Shown: positions 2,613-42,206 of the stretch, one piece after another | How the letters are laid out: each line of letters begins with the position of its first letter | Numbering within the stretch: position 1 is the first letter of the stretch | Source of the DNA: Lachnospiraceae bacterium | GTDB taxonomy: Bacteria; Bacillota; Clostridia; Lachnospirales; Lachnospiraceae | NCBI GenBank assembly: GCA_021199235.1 | Contig: JAJQIL010000045.1 | Location: forward strand, 1-53,364 | DNA length: 53,364 nt | Reading direction: 5' to 3' | Made by a program: the position numbers and the translations under genes | The notes under the pieces: model-generated | Told to the model about the DNA's origin: nothing | The model's input: only the letters and a program-made list of their open reading frames with translations | Database searches by the model: none

Positions 2613-3971
2613 ATGGACAGAAAAAACATTGTCTTTTATTTCAGTGACCAGCAGCGCGCGGATACCTGCGGCTGCTACGGGCAGCCTCTGGCTGTTACGC
2701 CCAACATCGACCGCCTCGCGGAAGAAGGGGTGCGGTTTGAGAACGCATTTTCCCCGCAGCCGGTCTGCGGGCCGTGCCGGGCGCTGTTTCAGACCGGACA
2801 GTATCCGACGAAGACTGGCTGTTTCCGGAACAATATCATGCTCCCCACTGGGATAAAAACACTCGGGATGTACATGGAAGAGGCCGGGTATGAGACGGCT
2901 TATGTGGGCAAGTGGCATCTTGCCAGTGACGGTGAGCTGGATCAGACGCCGCGGATCGACCATACGGTGACCGCGATCCCCAGAGAGCTGCGGGGCGGTT
3001 ATACCGGCTACTGGAGAGCGGCGGACGTGCTGGAATTTACCTCACATGGTTACGACGGCTATGTATTTGATGAAAATAACCGGAAAATTGAGTTTAAAGG
3101 CTATCGCGCGGACTGCATCAACGACATGGCACTGGAGTTTCTGGATGCGTATGACGGGAACAGGCCGTTTTTTCTGACCGTGTCGCAGATAGAGCCGCAT
3201 CACCAGAATGATCACGCGCATTATGAGGGGCCGCACGGCTCCAGGGAACGGTTCCGGGATTTTGTGCTGCCGGAAGATCTGCGTGTGCTCGGAGGGGATG
3301 CCGCGGAAGAATATCCGGATTATCTCGGGCAATGCGCCAGTCTGGATGAAAATGTCGGACGGCTCATTGCAAAGCTCAAAGAAAAGGGCATCTATGAAAA
3401 TACGATGATCATTTATACGTCAGATCACGGTTCGCATTTCAGGACGCGGAACCGGGACGCTCATCTGAACGGAAATGACGACTACAAGCGCTCCGGGCAT
3501 GACGCGTCCCTGAAGGTTCCCCTGATCATCGCGGGCGGGGCCTGTTCGGGCGGAAAAGTCGTACAGGATCTGGTCAGCACGGAAAGCCTGCCCAAGACCA
3601 TCCTTGCCATGGCGGGCGTGGACGTCGGCGGCGCAATGATCGGAGAGAACCTGTTGGACGTTGTGAAACAAAAAGACCCGAAGCGGGAAAATCAGGTATT
3701 TGCGCAGATTTCGGAGAGCCGGGTCGGTCGGTGCGTCCGCACGCCTGACTTCCTTTATGCCGTGTACGCACCGGACGTGGACGGCGGCGAGACTGCTTCC
3801 TCTGATATTTACGCGGACGATTACCTCTATGATATGCGGACAGATCCGTACCAGCTGCACAATGTGGCCGCGGACAAGGCATATGCCGGTATCAAAGCTG
3901 ATCTTCGGGAAAGGCTGCTGGCATGGATCGAGAGGGTGGAAGGGTGCCGCCCGGTTATCATGGATGCATAG
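2613..3971 (+). CDS. Family S1 sulfatase, Cys-type
   Basis: This 452-residue type I sulfatase hydrolyses a sulfate ester, probably on a sugar. The modification signature CGPCR (C52 to R56, the C-x-P-x-R pattern) marks the cysteine that a maturase converts to formylglycine. Other active-site motifs are SDQQ near residues 11-14, VGKWHL (98-103), TSDHG (269-273) and the H296/K301 pair in GHDASLKVP. No signal peptide is visible, so the enzyme should act in the cytoplasm, after uptake or on phosphorolysis substrates. It sits between nahK and the anaerobic sulfatase-maturase that would activate it. The neighbourhood suggests sulfated mucin or milk-type glycans, for example a 6-sulfated hexosamine or galactose; this is inference, and the sulfatase subfamily was not determined. 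Confidence 0.88.
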   Translation: MDRKNIVFYFSDQQRADTCGCYGQPLAVTPNIDRLAEEGVRFENAFSPQPVCGPCRALFQTGQYPTKTGCFRNNIMLPTGIKTLGMYMEEAGYETAYVGKWHLASDGELDQTPRIDHTVTAIPRELRGGYTGYWRAADVLEFTSHGYDGYVFDENNRKIEFKGYRADCINDMALEFLDAYDGNRPFFLTVSQIEPHHQNDHAHYEGPHGSRERFRDFVLPEDLRVLGGDAAEEYPDYLGQCASLDENVGRLIAKLKEKGIYENTMIIYTSDHGSHFRTRNRDAHLNGNDDYKRSGHDASLKVPLIIAGGACSGGKVVQDLVSTESLPKTILAMAGVDVGGAMIGENLLDVVKQKDPKRENQVFAQISESRVGRCVRTPDFLYAVYAPDVDGGETASSDIYADDYLYDMRTDPYQLHNVAADKAYAGIKADLRERLLAWIERVEGCRPVIMDA

Positions 3972-4149
3972 TAACTATTCAGAACAGGTCTTCGCACTTG
4001 CTGCGAAGACCGTATGAAATCATATAGCATGTGGGGAAAAGCCCTCGCCGGGTGGCATCCCATCCAAAAACCGGATGGGATAATCCCCATCGCGCAGCGA
4101 TTTTAAATGGGCTTTTCCCTCGTAACTGTGAAGTTACTGAACAGTTACG
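3971..4149 (+). repeat. Long palindromic intergenic element, copy 1
   Basis: A composite inverted-repeat element fills the gap between the sulfatase and its maturase. The outer ends are GTAACTATTCAG (3971-3982) and CTGAACAGTTAC (4137-4148). Inside are a perfect 10-bp stem with a 5-nt loop (3987-3996 with 4002-4011), an 11-bp stem (4034-4044 with 4109-4119), a 9-bp stem (4057-4065 with 4073-4081) that copy 2 lacks, a small ATCGC/GCGAT stem near 4089-4101, and the 29-nt unit CGTAACTGT...ACAGTTACG (4121-4149). The sulfatase stop codon overlaps the first base. Copy 2 is at 38711-38845 and keeps the stems with different sequence. It may be a mobile palindromic element or a structured RNA; I do not recognise a described family. 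Confidence 0.85.
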
Positions 4150-4206
4150 ATGCATAAAGAAACGGTATCTGTGATAAAACGGAGCAGTTATGGAGAGGTG
4201 GTTACG

Positions 4207-5567: not shown

Positions 5568-5595
5568 CGTAACTGTTCGGTACCTTCTCAGTTAG
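5568..5595. repeat. Short GTAACTGTT palindromic unit
   Basis: CGTAACTGTTCGG followed by TACCTTCTCAGTTAG matches the reverse complement of the 29-nt unit at the end of the long elements, with a few changes. It lies in the leader of the Uma2-family gene. Confidence 0.6.
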
Positions 5596-5748: not shown

Positions 5749-6468
5749 ATGAAACAGATGAAAAATCAGAAGGAACGGTCGAAAGCGGATGAGACAAAGA
5801 CGGAATTCGGCCAGGAACACCGGGAAGAAGAGCTGTTTTATGGAGAATGGACGGATCTGACAGGGGCGGATCTGCTGCGTGAGCCGGAGACACTGTATGC
5901 ATATAAGCGGCAGGGTGAGTACACGCTGGAGGATTATTACGCGCTTCCGGACGACCGGCGGGTGGAACTCATTGACGGAGTATTTTTCGATATGGAGGCG
6001 CCCGGAGTTGATCATCAGACAGCAGCAATGCAGATCGTCCGACAACTGGACGAGTACATCGATACGCAGGGAGGCTCCTGTATGCCGTTTGTATCTCCGA
6101 TCGATGTGCAGCTGGACTGTGACGACAGGACGATGGTAGAGCCGGATGTGGTCCTTCTCTGCGATATGAAAAAGAACGCCGGCCGCTGTATTTATGGAGC
6201 CCCGGATCTGGTGATGGAAGTTCTCTCACCATCCACGTTCCGAAAGGATCAGACTTTAAAATTAAGCAAATACAGGAATGCCGGCGTCAGGGAATATTGG
6301 ATTATCGATCTGAAGCGCGAGAAGGTCACCGTGTATGATTTCGAGCATCAGAAGCATCCGGCTATCTATGGGATGGATGTCCCGATTCCGGTTGGAATTT
6401 ATGATGGAAAATGTGAGATACGGTTTGACAGATATTTTGCCAGAATGAAGATGCTGAATCAGGGGTGA
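5749..6468 (+). CDS. Uma2 family (DUF820) putative endonuclease-like protein
   Basis: The 239-residue protein carries the PD-(D/E)XK-like core of the Uma2/DUF820 family: VELIDG (72-77), EPDVVL (D133 as likely metal ligand), LVMEVLSP (E157) and a K-rich helix KLSKYRNAG, then REYWIIDLKR. The family is common in cyanobacteria and gut Firmicutes and its role is unsettled; restriction-like nuclease or transposon-associated functions have been suggested. The first ~55 residues are a charged extension (many K, E, D) ahead of the usual start around YTLEDYYALPDD. The ATG at 5749 is preceded by a GAAGGAG site. It stands alone under its own promoter, with no partner gene. I cannot assign a biological role. 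Confidence 0.75.
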   Translation: MKQMKNQKERSKADETKTEFGQEHREEELFYGEWTDLTGADLLREPETLYAYKRQGEYTLEDYYALPDDRRVELIDGVFFDMEAPGVDHQTAAMQIVRQLDEYIDTQGGSCMPFVSPIDVQLDCDDRTMVEPDVVLLCDMKKNAGRCIYGAPDLVMEVLSPSTFRKDQTLKLSKYRNAGVREYWIIDLKREKVTVYDFEHQKHPAIYGMDVPIPVGIYDGKCEIRFDRYFARMKMLNQG

Positions 6469-6642: not shown

Positions 6643-6660
6643 CGGGGCAAGTAAATAATA

Positions 6661-6755
6661 GCGAAGTAGGAATCTATGCGTTAAGTGTTCATTGGATGGG
6701 GAGTCGCCGTGAAACGAAAAATCCGGCCGCCGATGTGTCAATTCCCGGATACATC
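6661..6755 (+). promoter_or_regulatory. Tetrahydrofolate (THF) riboswitch
   Basis: The stretch holds the ordered conserved blocks of the class I THF aptamer as I remember them: AGTAGG, GCGTTAAGTG, GGATGGGGAGT, ACGAA and a 3' half with a CCGGAT-CATC-like end. GGAAT near 6669-6673 can pair with ATTCC near 6740-6745 to close the P1/P2 region. It lies between a good promoter and an ECF folate-type S component, the usual regulated gene. About 240 nt separate it from the ATG; this platform contains a perfect ATTATGAGA/TCTCATAAT stem (6802-6810 with 6822-6830) and a distal CCGGG...CCCGG pairing ending in TTTT near 6950. The switching mechanism was not resolved. Confidence 0.8.
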
Positions 6756-6993
6756 TGGTATGGAAGAGATTTACGATATATTTTCCGCACCCGTTGCTAC
6801 AATTATGAGAATCGTACAACATCTCATAATGTGGAGGGCATATTATTTATGGATGGTTCGGGCTGTCTGTATGATGGCCGGGACTGCAGCCTGTTGACTG
6901 GCATCTGAAGGTAATGGTCTGTTATCTGCCCTTTCCGGTTCCAAAGCCCGGTTTTCTTTGGATGCCGTATGCACATTATGGAGGTGTTTTCTT

Positions 6994-7672: not shown

Positions 7673-7709
7673 AAAAGGCTTTCTGCGGATGCTGCGGGGA
7701 GCCTTTTTA
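7673..7709 (+). terminator. Rho-independent terminator after folT
   Basis: AAAAGGCT (7673-7680) pairs with AGCCTTTT (7700-7707), giving an A/T-flanked stem ending in a T-run, about 100 bp after the folT stop. Confidence 0.6.
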
Positions 7710-7824
7710 TAATGCACACTGGCACGAGTGGAAATTAGCAGCTTTGCTTCTTGCCTCCGGCTCGATTTCCTAATCAGCATAGATTACTGCAAAAAAAGAA
7801 TAGAACAATGAGCATGAAATGTGG

Positions 7825-10379: not shown

Positions 10380-10487
10380 TTTGGTTTCGGACGGAGTCTT
10401 TGGTATTGCGTTTGGCGAGACGGAACGGAGTGGAGAGCGCGCTCGCGCGTAAAGAATTACGTTGCTAAAGCGACCGCGCTCTGCGCG

Positions 10488-10512
10488 AGAATGCGCCATG
10501 GCGCATTCTTTT
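10488..10512 (+). terminator. Terminator after pgmB
   Basis: A perfect 22-bp palindrome, AGAATGCGCCA/TGGCGCATTCT, is followed by TTTT. Just upstream (about 10435-10490) CTCGCGC and GCGCGAG can pair, adding to a GC-rich palindromic tract. Confidence 0.75.
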
Positions 10513-13041: not shown

Positions 13042-13204
13042 GGAGAGACTGCTGATTGCTCATCAAAGAGGTGCACATTTTTCATTTTTTTTCCGTTTCG
13101 AATATGAATTTTACCATTTCTTTTCAGAAATAAACCGAGTTGAAAAGAGCATCAATTTTTGGGAAAATTCAAATTGAAATCTGTGAAATACAAGGAGAAA
13201 AAAG

Positions 13205-21560: not shown

Positions 21561-21589
21561 TGTAACTGTGAAGGTGCTGAACGGTTACG
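21561..21589. repeat. Short GTAACTGT palindromic unit
   Basis: TGTAACTGTGAAGG followed by TGCTGAACGGTTACG matches the 29-nt terminal unit of the long elements with three differences. It sits in the gap between the binding-protein and second permease genes. Confidence 0.75.
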
Positions 21590-25895: not shown

Positions 25896-28800
25896 ATGTC
25901 AAAGAGAACAGACATCCATAAGGTACTGATCATCGGCTCGGGGCCGATTATCATTGGGCAGGCCTGCGAATTCGATTATTCGGGTACACAGGCCTGCAAA
26001 GCGTTGAGAAAACTTGGCTACGAGATCGTGCTTGTCAATTCCAATCCGGCAACGATCATGACAGATCCGGAGATCGCGGACGTCACGTACATTGAGCCGC
26101 TGAATGTGACGCGGCTGGAGCAGATCATCGCCAGGGAGCGCCCGGACGCGCTGTTGCCGAATCTGGGCGGACAGTCCGGACTTAATCTGTGTTCTGAGCT
26201 GGCGAATGCCGGGGTTCTGGAGAAATACGGCGTGCAGGTTATCGGCGTGCAGGTGGACGCGATCGAGCGCGGCGAGGACCGCATTGAGTTTAAGAATACA
26301 ATGAACGCGCTGGGTATCGAGATGGCGAGAAGCGAAGTCTCCTACAGTGTGGAGGAAGCGCTGGCTATTGCGGATAAGCTGGGATACCCGGTCGTTCTGC
26401 GTCCGGCCTATACGATGGGCGGCGCCGGCGGCGGCCTTGTTTACAATAAAGAGGAATTAAAGACGGTCTGCGCCCGCGGTTTGCAGGCAAGCCTGGTCGG
26501 TCAGGTGCTGGTGGAAGAGTCTGTGCTTGGCTGGGAGGAGCTGGAGCTGGAGGTGATCCGTGATAAGGATAACAACATGATCACGGTCTGCTTTATTGAG
26601 AATATCGACCCGATGGGCGTGCATACCGGAGATTCGTTCTGCGCGGCGCCGATGCTGACGATTTCTGAGGATGTGCAGAAGCGGCTGCAGGAGCAGGCTT
26701 ACAAGATCGTGGAGTCCGTGCAGGTGATCGGCGGCACGAACGTGCAGTTCGCGCATGACCCGAAGACGGACCGCATTGTCGTCATTGAGATCAATCCGCG
26801 TACCTCCCGCTCGTCGGCGCTGGCTTCCAAGGCGACCGGCTTCCCGATCGCGCTGGTATCCGCGATGCTGGCATGCGGCCTTTCTCTTTCCGAAATTCCC
26901 TGCGGCAAATACGGCACGCTGGATAAGTACGTGCCGGACGGCGACTATGTGGTGATCAAATTTGCCCGCTGGGCATTTGAAAAATTCAAAGGCGTGGAGG
27001 ACAAGCTGGGGACACAGATGCGCGCGGTCGGCGAGGTCATGAGCATCGGCAAGACCTATAAGGAAGCATTCCAGAAGGCCATCCGTTCTCTGGAGACAGG
27101 GCGTTACGGCCTTGGCCACGCGAAGGATTTTGATACAAAGACAAAGGAAGAGCTGCTCTCCATGCTGATCACGCCGTCCAGCGAGCGCCATTTTATCATG
27201 TATGAGGCGCTGCGCAAGGGTGCGACGGTGGATGAGATCTATGAGATCACAAAGGTGAAGAAATATTTCATTGAGCAGATGAAGGAGCTGGTGGAAGAGG
27301 AGGAAACCCTGGTAAAGAGCAAAGGGCAGCTTCCACCGGATGAGGCTCTGATCTCCGCGAAGAAGAACGGCTTTTCGGATAAATATTTAAGCCAGATCCT
27401 GGAGATTCCGGAGGACGATGTGCGCAATCGCCGTCTGGAACTTGGCGTGGAGGAAGCCTGGGAAGGCGTGCACGTCAGCGGCACGCAGGACAGTGCGTAT
27501 TATTATTCCACCTACAACGCGCCGGATAAAAACCCGGTTTCGGAGGAAAAGCCGAAGATCATGATCCTGGGCGGCGGCCCGAACCGCATCGGCCAGGGCA
27601 TCGAGTTTGACTATTGCTGTGTTCACGCGTCTCTGGCACTGAAAAAGCTGGGCTTTGAGACCATCATCGTCAACTGCAATCCGGAGACGGTATCGACCGA
27701 CTATGATACCTCGGACAAGCTCTATTTTGAGCCGCTGACGCTGGAGGATGTCTTAAGCATTTACCGCAAGGAGAAGCCGCTCGGCGTCATCGCGCAGTTC
27801 GGCGGTCAGACTCCGCTCAATCTGGCTGCGGATCTGGAGAGGAACGGCGTGAAGATCCTGGGGACCGCTCCGTCTGTCATTGATCTGGCGGAAGACCGCG
27901 ACCAGTTCCGCGCGATGATGGAGAAGCTGGACATTCCGATGCCGGAGTCCGGCATGGCTGTCACTATCGAAGACGCAAAGGCGATCGCCGCGCAGATCGG
28001 CTATCCGGTCATGGTGCGCCCGTCCTATGTCCTCGGCGGCAGAGGAATGGAAGTCGTCTATGATGATGAAAGCATGGAAAATTACATGGCGGCGGCTGTC
28101 GGCGTGACGCCGGACCGTCCGATCCTGATCGACCGCTTCCTGAATCATGCGCTGGAGTGCGAGGCGGACGCCATCAGCGATGGTACGCATGCCTTTGTGC
28201 CGGCTGTGATGGAGCATATTGAGCTTGCCGGGATCCACTCGGGTGATTCCGCCTGCATTATTCCTTCCGTGCATATTTCGGAGGAAAATGTTAAAACCAT
28301 CAAGGACTATACGAAAAAGATCGCCGAGGAGATGCATGTGCGGGGACTTATGAACATGCAGTATGCGATCGAGAACGGCAAGGTATTTGTGCTGGAGGCG
28401 AACCCGCGGGCATCGAGAACCGTGCCGCTGGTCTCCAAGGTGTGCAACATCCGCATGGTGCCGCTTGCCACGGACATCATTACCTCCGAGCTCACCGGGC
28501 GTCCTTCGCCGGTGCCGGGATTAAAGGAACAGAACATTCCGAACTACGGTGTGAAGGAAGCCGTGTTCCCGTTCAATATGTTCCCGGAGGTCGACCCGAT
28601 CCTCGGACCGGAAATGCGCTCGACCGGTGAGGTACTCGGCATCTCCGCGTCTTACGGGGAAGCGTTTTACAAGGCACAGGAGGCGACACAGACGAGACTG
28701 CCGCTTGAAGGCACGGTGCTGATCTCCGTCAGCCGCCGGGATAAGCCGGAGGTCGTGGAAGTGGCCAGAAGCTTTGCGGAGGATGGCTTTAAGATCCTCG

Positions 28801-29204
28801 CGACCGGCACGACTTACGATCTGCTGACAGAGAACGGCATTGAGGCGGAAAAGGTGAAGAAGCTGTACGAGGGCAGACCGAATATCCTTGATCTGATCAC
28901 GAACGGCGACATCGATCTGATCGTCAATACGCCGGTCGGCAAGGAGAGCGTCCATGACGACAGCTACCTGCGGAAGGCTGCCATCAAGGCGAAAATTCCG
29001 TATATGACGACGATGGCCGCCGCACGTGTGACCGCGCAGGGCATCAAATACGTGAAAGAGCATGGGAATCTGGAGAGCCGCCGCATGCAGAATCGCCCAG
29101 TGGGCGATGCGGCGGCCTGCGCCACAGATTCGCGGGGCGAATCTATGACATATGGAGAAGTGAAATCCCTGCAGGAGATTCACAGCGAGATTACGGATTT
29201 ATAA
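25896..29204 (+). CDS. carB: Carbamoyl-phosphate synthase large subunit
   Basis: This 1102-residue enzyme makes carbamoyl phosphate from bicarbonate, ammonia (delivered by CarA) and 2 ATP, for pyrimidines and arginine. Two ATP-grasp halves are clear: the first begins HKVLIIGSGPIIIGQACEFDYSG, the second KIMILGGGPNRIGQGIEFDYC (from about residue 550), and an MGS-like allosteric domain ends the protein. The start follows AGGAGG. Near the C-terminus, after KEHGNLE (E1060), 28 extra codons (29076-29159) interrupt the usual continuation VKSLQEIHSEITD; without them the length would be 1074, close to the 1073 of E. coli. The insertion is palindromic and in frame. carA is not in the window, and the gene stands alone between sugar loci. 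Confidence 0.96.
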   Translation: MSKRTDIHKVLIIGSGPIIIGQACEFDYSGTQACKALRKLGYEIVLVNSNPATIMTDPEIADVTYIEPLNVTRLEQIIARERPDALLPNLGGQSGLNLCSELANAGVLEKYGVQVIGVQVDAIERGEDRIEFKNTMNALGIEMARSEVSYSVEEALAIADKLGYPVVLRPAYTMGGAGGGLVYNKEELKTVCARGLQASLVGQVLVEESVLGWEELELEVIRDKDNNMITVCFIENIDPMGVHTGDSFCAAPMLTISEDVQKRLQEQAYKIVESVQVIGGTNVQFAHDPKTDRIVVIEINPRTSRSSALASKATGFPIALVSAMLACGLSLSEIPCGKYGTLDKYVPDGDYVVIKFARWAFEKFKGVEDKLGTQMRAVGEVMSIGKTYKEAFQKAIRSLETGRYGLGHAKDFDTKTKEELLSMLITPSSERHFIMYEALRKGATVDEIYEITKVKKYFIEQMKELVEEEETLVKSKGQLPPDEALISAKKNGFSDKYLSQILEIPEDDVRNRRLELGVEEAWEGVHVSGTQDSAYYYSTYNAPDKNPVSEEKPKIMILGGGPNRIGQGIEFDYCCVHASLALKKLGFETIIVNCNPETVSTDYDTSDKLYFEPLTLEDVLSIYRKEKPLGVIAQFGGQTPLNLAADLERNGVKILGTAPSVIDLAEDRDQFRAMMEKLDIPMPESGMAVTIEDAKAIAAQIGYPVMVRPSYVLGGRGMEVVYDDESMENYMAAAVGVTPDRPILIDRFLNHALECEADAISDGTHAFVPAVMEHIELAGIHSGDSACIIPSVHISEENVKTIKDYTKKIAEEMHVRGLMNMQYAIENGKVFVLEANPRASRTVPLVSKVCNIRMVPLATDIITSELTGRPSPVPGLKEQNIPNYGVKEAVFPFNMFPEVDPILGPEMRSTGEVLGISASYGEAFYKAQEATQTRLPLEGTVLISVSRRDKPEVVEVARSFAEDGFKILATGTTYDLLTENGIEAEKVKKLYEGRPNILDLITNGDIDLIVNTPVGKESVHDDSYLRKAAIKAKIPYMTTMAAARVTAQGIKYVKEHGNLESRRMQNRPVGDAAACATDSRGESMTYGEVKSLQEIHSEITDL
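29076..29159 (+). repeat. In-frame palindromic insertion in carB
   Basis: 84 bp inside carB consisting of two hairpins: GCCGCCGCAT (29077-29086) with ATGCGGCGGC (29107-29116), with inner TCGCCCA/TGGGCGA, and AGATTCGC (29126-29133) with GCGAATCT (29137-29144). It encodes 28 residues starting SRRMQNRP. The length is a multiple of three and leaves the final residues of CarB intact, so it behaves like a protein-tolerated palindromic element. Confidence 0.75.
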
Positions 29205-30797: not shown

Positions 30798-30826
30798 CGT
30801 AACTGTTCAGTGCCTGGACAATTACG
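30798..30826. repeat. Short GTAACTGTT palindromic unit
   Basis: CGTAACTGTTCAG, then TGCCTGGACAATTACG: arms CGTAACTGT and ACAATTACG. It is in the leader region of the GH2 gene, in the orientation opposite to the long elements' terminal unit. Confidence 0.7.
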
Positions 30827-33130: not shown

Positions 33131-33211
33131 AATCATGATGAACTGTGCCTGGACGCGCTGGGACAATGATTCCCGGTGTGCGCCCGGTGCAATGGATAAT
33201 TGCATAAAGGT

Positions 33212-33237
33212 GGCTGTAAAGGTATTGAACAGTCACG
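33212..33237. repeat. Degenerate palindromic unit before the symporter gene
   Basis: GGCTGTAAAGG followed by TATTGAACAGTCACG: the right half is well kept, the left arm is truncated relative to other units. It lies in the 155-bp gap between GH2 and the symporter gene. Confidence 0.5.
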
Positions 33238-38615: not shown

Positions 38616-38710
38616 TCCATATCCTTTTGCTTCTGATATCTGGCAGAACTCAGGGCATGGCTGTTCGTCGAAGAAGTGATTTTACAGGAAACGGCTAATG
38701 TTGTTTCCTG

Positions 38711-38845
38711 ATAACTATTCAGGACAGTACCTCGCACTCGCTGCGAGGTACGTATGAAAACGTTCATTCTACAGGAAAAAGTCCCATCGCGCAGCGATTT
38801 TAAATGGACTTTTTCCCGTAACTGTGAAGGTACTGAACAGTTACG
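38711..38845 (+). repeat. Long palindromic intergenic element, copy 2
   Basis: Same plan as copy 1 at 3971-4149. 5' end ATAACTATTCAG; 10-bp stem (38727-38736 with 38742-38751, loop CTCGC); 11-bp stem (38774-38784 with 38806-38816) enclosing the CATCGCGCAGCGAT core shared with copy 1; 29-nt terminal unit CGTAACTGT...ACAGTTACG (38817-38845). Relative to copy 1 the first stem has three and the second stem two paired changes that keep the pairing. It fills most of the 292-bp gap between uxuA and the SDR gene. Confidence 0.85.
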
Positions 38846-38907
38846 TTTCCTGCAGCATTGGGGCACTCCTGGGGTGCCCCATAATTATTCGAAAAGAGGA
38901 ATGCGAT

Positions 38908-42073: not shown

Positions 42074-42184
42074 GGGAGAAAAGCTGTAACTGTGAAAATA
42101 CAGCTACGGGAGAGATTCGTAACTGTGAAGGAACGAAACGGTTATGGGAGAAGATTCGTAATTGTAAAGATACAGGACAGTTAC
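42074..42184 (+). repeat. Tandem triplet of GTAACTGT-type units
   Basis: Three head-to-tail units, each opening with GGGAGA and holding a GTAACTGT/ACAGTTAC-like inverted repeat: 42074-42107, 42108-42145 and 42146-42184. The units differ in their middle sequence and arms (CTGTAACTGT...ACAGCTAC; CGTAACTGT...ACGGTTATG; CGTAATTGT...ACAGTTAC). The array occupies nearly the whole leader of the zinc-ribbon gene. Confidence 0.8.
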
Positions 42185-42206
42185 AATTCAGAAAGGATGG
42201 AAAGCT

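Follow-up and report, generated by a model that had tools for sequence, protein, structure and literature searches.

A family of miniature transposable elements with a covarying folded interior and IS66-like ends in Lachnospiraceae

What kind of element leaves two intergenic sequences of one plan whose stems differ by paired changes? This question is raised by two sites in a 53,364-nucleotide stretch of Lachnospiraceae bacterium DNA (contig JAJQIL010000045.1), the whole of which is called the window here. The preliminary description placed the sites at 3971-4149 and 38711-38845 and read the pairing as selection on folding, in a structured RNA or in a hairpin-recognised mobile element. Direct reading of the sequence gave 3971-4148 (178 bp) for copy 1 and 38711-38844 (134 bp) for copy 2. 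The element was thus located correctly, but the last base of each span did not belong to it, since 4149 and 38845 are the first bases of 8-bp target duplications. The parts of the two copies, which are identified below as a miniature transposable element (MITE), are as follows.

3963-3970, no strand: left 8-bp target duplication of copy 1, GATGCATA (single copy, GATGAATA, in the relative G008)
3971-4148, + strand: MITE copy 1, the 178-bp form with an inserted hairpin module
3971-3982, + strand: left terminal repeat of copy 1, GTAACTATTCAG; the IS66-like element in L262/L277 has the identical end
3987-4011, + strand: hairpin H1 of copy 1, 10 bp, loop CTTGC
4034-4044, + strand: 5' arm of stem S2 of copy 1, GGGAAAAGCCC
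4045-4087, + strand: 43-bp inserted module of copy 1, which contains the extra 9-bp stem; repeats related to it are also found elsewhere than in the element
4089-4101, + strand: nested mini-hairpin of copy 1, ATCGC-GCA-GCGAT, with a C(GNA)G loop
4102-4108, + strand: conserved 7-nt bulge of copy 1, TTTAAAT
4109-4119, + strand: 3' arm of stem S2 of copy 1, GGGCTTTTCCC
4122-4148, + strand: right-end 27-bp quasi-palindrome of copy 1, ending in the right terminal repeat CTGAACAGTTAC (4137-4148)
4149-4156, no strand: right 8-bp target duplication of copy 1, GATGCATA
38703-38710, no strand: left 8-bp target duplication of copy 2, GTTTCCTG
38711-38844, + strand: MITE copy 2, the 134-bp form
38727-38751, + strand: H1 of copy 2
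38774-38816, + strand: S2 of copy 2 with the nested mini-hairpin and the bulge
38818-38844, + strand: right-end 27-bp unit of copy 2
38845-38852, no strand: right 8-bp target duplication of copy 2, GTTTCCTG

The basic form of the element is 132-136 bp long, and its terminal inverted repeats are GTAACTRTTCAG/CTGAACAGTTAC. The extra 9-bp stem noticed earlier in the 178-bp copy 1 was found inside the 43-bp insert, and in the minimum-energy fold of the 178-nt copy this module partly re-pairs the S2 region. The module sequence (TCGCCGGG..GGCATCCC..) also occurs apart from the element: 3 of 5 pattern matches in 410 kb lay outside it, including L104 4409-4490 (a tandem of about 39 bp) and L110 7468 on the minus strand, and one MITE copy (L041) carries the module at two different places. 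Copy 1 is inserted within the stop codon of a sulfatase gene (PF00884), where the first G of the element completes a new stop, and the gene after it encodes a radical SAM/SPASM protein. Copy 2 is flanked by the genes of a mannonate dehydratase (UxuA) and a short-chain dehydrogenase.

The element is a miniature transposable element and not a stationary RNA gene, because it has 8-bp target duplications, an empty site and many dispersed copies, and the mobility named in the second of the two options raised at first holds on the same grounds. These traits of a MITE were found: the element is short, has terminal inverted repeats and a target duplication, lacks transposase coding capacity, occurs in dispersed copies and is absent from an empty site. 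Both window copies are surrounded by perfect (8/8) duplications. At the copy 1 locus of G008, a relative with 93% identical DNA, both flanking genes are present with the target once and no element between them. G008 lacks copy 2 as well, but the divergence of the intergenic stretch there prevents a clean empty site from being read. Moreover, the duplication score was bimodal among 300 end pairs lying 110-260 bp apart, a set in which each copy is counted once per strand and chance pairs are included: 117 pairs scored 8/8, 58 scored 7/8, 13 scored 6/8 and 7 scored 5/8. The target is AT-rich and asymmetric, with G at 64% and A at 66% at the first two duplicated positions and C at 11% at position 8 (n = 90).

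Searched against the 3.47-Mb draft genome, copy 1 had 64 matches, a number that includes fragments of one and the same copy; with a covariance model there were 68. With the same kind of model, matches were obtained in 33 of the 47 genomes of the genus, this genome included, and none in the other 14. One 134-bp copy from this genome has a 100% identical match at a different locus of G008, and copies in G010 and G014 match it at 99%, against 72-94% for syntenic matches over the surrounding stretch, which suggests a recent spread. A half element of 72 bp, comprising the left end, H1 and the linker, was seen at L116 (about 13120-13191) and is missing in G008.

The paired stem changes of the preliminary description were borne out by direct reading. 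In the 10-bp stem H1 (arms GGTCTTCGCA/TGCGAAGACC in copy 1 and GTACCTCGCA/TGCGAGGTAC in copy 2), pairs 2, 3 and 5 change from G-C, T-A and T-A to T-A, A-T and C-G. In the 11-bp stem S2, whose arms in copy 2 are GGAAAAAGTCC/GGACTTTTTCC, one G-C becomes A-T and one C-G becomes T-A. All five compensatory changes are real, and the core is constant between the two copies, as had been claimed. The RNA fold of the whole element was more stable than dinucleotide shuffles, with z = -8.97 for the 178-nt copy and -7.10 for the 134-nt copy.

The paired changes were also upheld in three larger sets of 70 copies, 30 divergence-chosen rows and 65 distinct rows mostly from other genera. The first alignment (A2) holds 70 distinct copies, 21 from this genome, 10 from other genomes of the genus and 39 from a core-pattern scan that may belong to this genus or to others; only copies with a duplication scoring 6/8 or better were admitted, so that A2 is uninformative on duplication frequency. 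In A2, 98.1% of the cells of the 24 stem pairs were able to pair, compared with 89.3% after shuffling. Changes on both sides were found at 15 of the 24 pairs (153 cells), which was reached by 0 of 500 shuffles, and structures slid along the alignment gave only 4-10 pairs and 5-27 cells. In the second alignment (A3), 30 rows hand-picked for divergence of which 4 are from this genus, 23 of 24 pairs changed on both sides (201 cells; 0 of 500 shuffles) and the covariation was 0.745 relative to 0.171 in the shuffled rows. All 24 pairs changed on both sides in the 65 rows, with 402 cells. The 30-row and 65-row alignments were fitted to the covariance model, and their figures lean towards it. A parse from sequence only, which has no shuffled control, recovered S2 with the nested hairpin and bulge in 29 of the 30 divergent rows, the exception being L222, in which S2 has decayed. 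These results indicate that the fold is maintained by compensatory change across genera.

The unpaired parts are conserved as well. H1 is closed by GCA(5 nt)TGC in 23 of the 30 divergent rows, the linker CGTRNGA is present in 26 of them, and the nested loop C(GNA)G was found in 69 of the 70 A2 copies and in 60 of the 73 rows of alignment A4. These features bear on whether pairing could be kept without function. Template switching during replication between the arms of imperfect palindromes, known as quasi-palindrome correction, copies one arm onto the other. It would be expected to leave nearly perfect Watson-Crick stems with few G.T or A.C mismatches, as seen here, and other small palindromic inserts are present in the window. 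However, from genus to genus the C(GNA)G loop, the 7-nt bulge, the H1 loop and the linker vary little, whereas the stems are wholly replaced and yet keep their positions; copying predicts neither kept positions nor conserved unpaired parts. Arm-to-arm copying is an unlikely cause of the pairing. The conserved core, consisting of H1, the linker and S2 with its nested C(GNA)G mini-hairpin and 7-nt bulge, would do a job as a folded nucleic acid.

An IS66-like mover was suspected because of the terminal GTAACTRTTCAG pattern and the 8-bp duplication. According to two reports, the IS66 elements ISPpa5a and ISPpa7 make 8-bp duplications (PMC3281130), and IS66 ends start with GTAA, for example GTAAGCGTCC and GTAACCGTCC (PMC12888890). 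The element has two traits of an IS66 derivative, GTAA ends and an 8-bp duplication, and its ends resemble ordinary IS66-type inverted repeats. Furthermore, an IS66-like element of 1,696 bp was found in a different genus (G417) with GTAACTATTCAG at both ends, an 8/8 duplication and two reading frames matching PF03050 (E = 5.4e-26 and 3.8e-13). All 12 terminal bases of copy 1 are those of this element, and the MITE copies of G375, which belongs to the genus of G417, share its first 14 bases. In G275, G389 and G194, too, GTAACTRTTCAG 12-mers were found close to IS66-like genes. We therefore consider, with a probability of roughly three in four, that the two sites are non-autonomous MITE copies which are moved by an IS66-like DDE transposase via their GTAACTRTTCAG ends into short AT-rich sites by genes, with the duplication of 8 bp.

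The mover, which would act in trans as judged from the matching ends and the duplication length, is named only as a candidate, because no IS66 transposase was found in this genome (PF03050 and protein search; a draft of 161 contigs and 95% completeness) and no genome with both the element and an IS sharing its ends was found among G417, G275, G389 and G194. Of these four only G417 has a model match, and its copy ends in GTTACTGTTCAC, not GTAACTATTCAG. The Pfam IS66 transposase is present in 21 of the 47 genomes of the genus. The IS66 elements of the genus with GTAAACGTAAGT-like ends, judged by eye, were rejected as the mover because the ends, where they could be read, do not match, with many of these loci cut by contig ends; the nearest IS66-like copies within the genus end in GTTACTRTTCAC. 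With the covariance model, no convincing core was detected in 21 IS66-like loci (best E = 0.0049 and 0.14), so the core is not visibly derived from them. Deletion derivatives usually share interior homology with the parent IS, which MITEs need not do. In comparison with the IS66 family members without the full three-gene set, the element is alike in its GTAA-starting ends and 8-bp duplication, and differs in lacking a transposase gene and in having a structured interior, which the model does not find in these 21 loci.

What could the fold contribute to such movement? Our preferred guess is that extruded hairpins bring together for synapsis the two ends of a very short element, which we take to be shorter than about one DNA persistence length. 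Extruded hairpins might also mark the element for a host factor.

Complementary stems alone do not discriminate between DNA and RNA. The core may have been selected as RNA instead, being transcribed in the sense direction with the neighbouring genes; the RNA fold would make the insertion tolerable or useful, as a processing site, a 5'-leader regulator or an insulator, or would act in trans on transposition. This is the main alternative to the DNA-hairpin guess, and we hold it to be possible and rather doubtful. The folds are stable, with z near -7 for four of the six copies folded and values of -3.7 and -2.9 for the remaining two, and the copies tend to lie in the direction of the genes. In tandem gene contexts, 38 full copies were aligned with gene direction versus 13 against it, and 23 versus 6 solo units (described below), usable genes on both sides being available for 76 of the 77 full copies and for 46 of the 51 solos, and the contexts resting on longest-ORF calls, not on annotation. 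Divergent copies, nearly all from other genera, gave 19 versus 5, with no convergent context among 32; this set may include the genus copies L055 and L056 and has a few loci in common with the main orientation set. On the other hand, the core-less solo units have the same orientation bias, and with an asymmetric target site insertion itself could give such a bias. No promoter association was found either: 22 of 96 copies had a promoter upstream and 22 of 96 in the mirror position, and promoter-associated insertion was rejected. The orientation bias may be due to RNA-level selection or be a consequence of the asymmetric target.

If a sense RNA were selected, G.T should exceed A.C on the sense strand, and no significant excess was found. 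The model-fitted alignments gave G.T over A.C at 33 to 5 and 12 to 3. Symmetric scoring gave 11 to 6 in the divergent set and 10 to 10 in A2, and a MAFFT alignment gave 18 to 13; the weak match L367:523 was left out of the mismatch counts of the divergent set and kept in the 65-row pairing and loop counts. Wobble pairs were rare, at 4 of 288 S2 cells in the divergent set. The G.T excess probably stems from alignment scoring that is tolerant of G.U; it was gone with symmetric scoring, and RNA-specific selection is not claimed from it. As to a DNA role, the C(GNA)G loop of the nested hairpin is the motif of the extraordinarily stable DNA mini-hairpins d(GCGNAGC), which in the accessible part of their source is an aptamer-stabilising motif and is not described as part of a transposon (PMC4686876). 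This analogy fits a role of the element as DNA and is no proof of one.

Another reading of a transcript is that the element encodes a micropeptide (...PSRSDFKW...) from an ATG in the linker. Among 70 copies, this ATG is open in one frame to the core in 54, and 2 more have GTG. These counts reflect the relatedness of the copies, and a stop precedes the core in 6 of 70, three of which form one subfamily (L011, L066 and L145, with a stop at codon 4). The other copies lack a start or use another frame, and single-base length changes are common. The micro-ORF is not maintained among the 70 copies, and the micropeptide was rejected as highly improbable.

With a covariance model built on A2, the distribution of the element was followed through the order. 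Matches were obtained in at least 27 of 392 genomes and at least 12 of 173 genera, this genome included; these are lower bounds, with up to 8 candidates scored per genome, and at that depth 365 of the 392 genomes had no match. One of the 12 genera lies in another family, with one genome, and nearly all others belong to one family, taken as Lachnospiraceae. The records with the core pattern, among the matches listed (80 of 109), were mostly labelled Lachnospiraceae or Clostridiales bacterium, with a few Roseburia, Eubacterium and Dorea and one Afifella. There were no exact 27-mer matches in viral contigs and no element match in plasmids. Of 50,697 phage records, 3 matched 54% of the element, all of them unannotated human-faecal "Bacteriophage sp." contigs.

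Perfect 8/8 duplications were found at 10 of 28 divergent loci and at 7 of 40 further loci, in a search that slid both borders and kept the best, which makes its 7/8 values weak. No acceptable end pair was found at 25 of the 40 further loci, of which 18 are forms of the genus g26 with other ends and two are cut by a contig end. In g26 (G341, G212, G180 and G434), the same core has different ends, such as TTTTTGTCACT or CATGACATCTT, with several copies of each, and no convincing target duplication was found for these end types. One g26 locus (L293) has IS66-type ends with a 7/8 duplication, which is a weak value because it is the best of slid borders. A further end type was seen at L353, L354 and L355 of G212, where long inverted flanks (GAGTCA.TGGGGACGTATC..) enclose elements that carry the core. 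On this evidence the core looks like a module that persists beyond any single set of ends. Tentatively, and at somewhat less than even odds, the folded core may hitch-hike independently, as a structured DNA or RNA module that is selected in its own right and is passed between transposons with unrelated ends. It would recruit IS66-type mobility in most genera and other movers in g26, and would serve a step common to them, such as end synapsis of very short elements or host tolerance via the transcript.

The right end of the element, the 27-bp quasi-palindrome GTAACTGTGAAGGTACTGAACAGTTAC, also occurs alone. In 410 kb of this genome, 51 solo units (at most 7 mismatches) without a recognisable core were counted, and in the whole genome the terminal 12-mer (at most 1 mismatch) had 313 matches, compared with 9 for a mirrored control. 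Four solo units lie in the window.

5569-5595, - strand: solo 27-bp unit with an 8/8 target duplication
21562-21588, + strand: solo 27-bp unit with a 7/8 target duplication
30799-30825, - strand: solo 27-bp unit with a 5/8 duplication; missing in G008, with a difference of 35 bp (27 + 8)
33210-33236, + strand: solo 27-bp unit with a 6/8 target duplication; missing in G008, with a difference of 39 bp

A duplication of 7/8 or 8/8 was found at 14 of the 51 units, where the expected fraction is 0.0004, and at 13 of the 28 best-conserved ones. The solo units are either independent insertions of almost only two ends or recombination remnants between the GTAACT repeats of the full element. We give an even chance to the latter, in which a full element loses all between the left-end GTAACT and the inner GTAACT of the right end. 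The direct GTAACT repeats lie at exactly the required places, remnants would keep target duplications such as those at the 14 units, and duplications also flank other short forms, which measure 38, 50 and 52 bp. However, in the unit at 30799-30825 each of the two arms is of the terminal-repeat type, a GAAG arm being absent, and the unit differs from the empty G008 site by exactly a unit and a target, even though its duplication is now 5/8. Furthermore, among the orthologous loci compared, no site occupied by a full element in one species carried a solo unit in another. Units resembling the 27-bp sequence are also arranged in tandem with a spacing of about 8-12 bp at 42080-42185 of the window and at L124 near 2850-3000, as though units plus target duplications had multiplied.

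Other insertions and RNAs were noticed alongside the element. An 84-bp hairpin-rich insertion (29068-29151) lies in frame close to the C-terminus of the carbamoyl-phosphate synthase large chain (1102 aa), whose gene spans 25896-29204; the insertion is lacking in G008 and is reminiscent of palindromic elements that enter reading frames. Insertions of 53-107 bp at 1265-1371, 7709-7761 and 10430-10506 are missing in G008. Visual inspection showed no clear 8-bp duplications around them, and further families of small repeats may be active in the lineage. A THF riboswitch (RF01831, 67.4 bits) lies at 6660-6798 on the + strand of the window, and a TwoAYGGAY RNA (RF01731, 50.7 bits) at 6120-6285 of the MITE-bearing locus L222.

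The impression that the element was undescribed agreed with the searches. The Rfam comparison called for earlier placed no family at the element in the window or at 8 further loci, and a known RNA family was rejected: there was no match at gathering score, and a permissive scan of 351 bases gave only one at E = 4, overlapping the right edge. In the literature searched, no Lachnospiraceae MITE of this kind was found, nor one described as IS66-derived, and among the papers listed for the terminal 12-mer no title concerned such an element. ERIC, BOX, RUP and Correia/NEMIS are short dispersed intergenic repeats with dyad symmetry, some of which are thought to be MITEs and to be transcribed. As far as is known, their sequences and hosts are unrelated to those of the element. 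What sets the element apart is a fold that persists from genus to genus although its stem sequences are exchanged, together with a 27-bp unit of almost only two ends. REP/BIME sequences moved by RAYT (TnpA-REP) are hairpins with a conserved bulge in many copies, in which the present element is like them. We know of no 8-bp target duplications of REPs; here such duplications make a staggered double-strand insertion evident, and the REP trait of insertion without duplication was not observed.

The element represents a MITE superfamily with a covarying interior, unnamed in Rfam and in the literature searched. A bacterial MITE is usually regarded as a passive product of deletion within an insertion sequence. 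In this family it is not the ends alone that are kept: across a dozen sampled genera of the order, covariation preserves the interior too. For annotators, it is a family with up to about 70 matches per genome, and its covarying interior makes it directly testable whether folding helps very short elements to move or to be tolerated.
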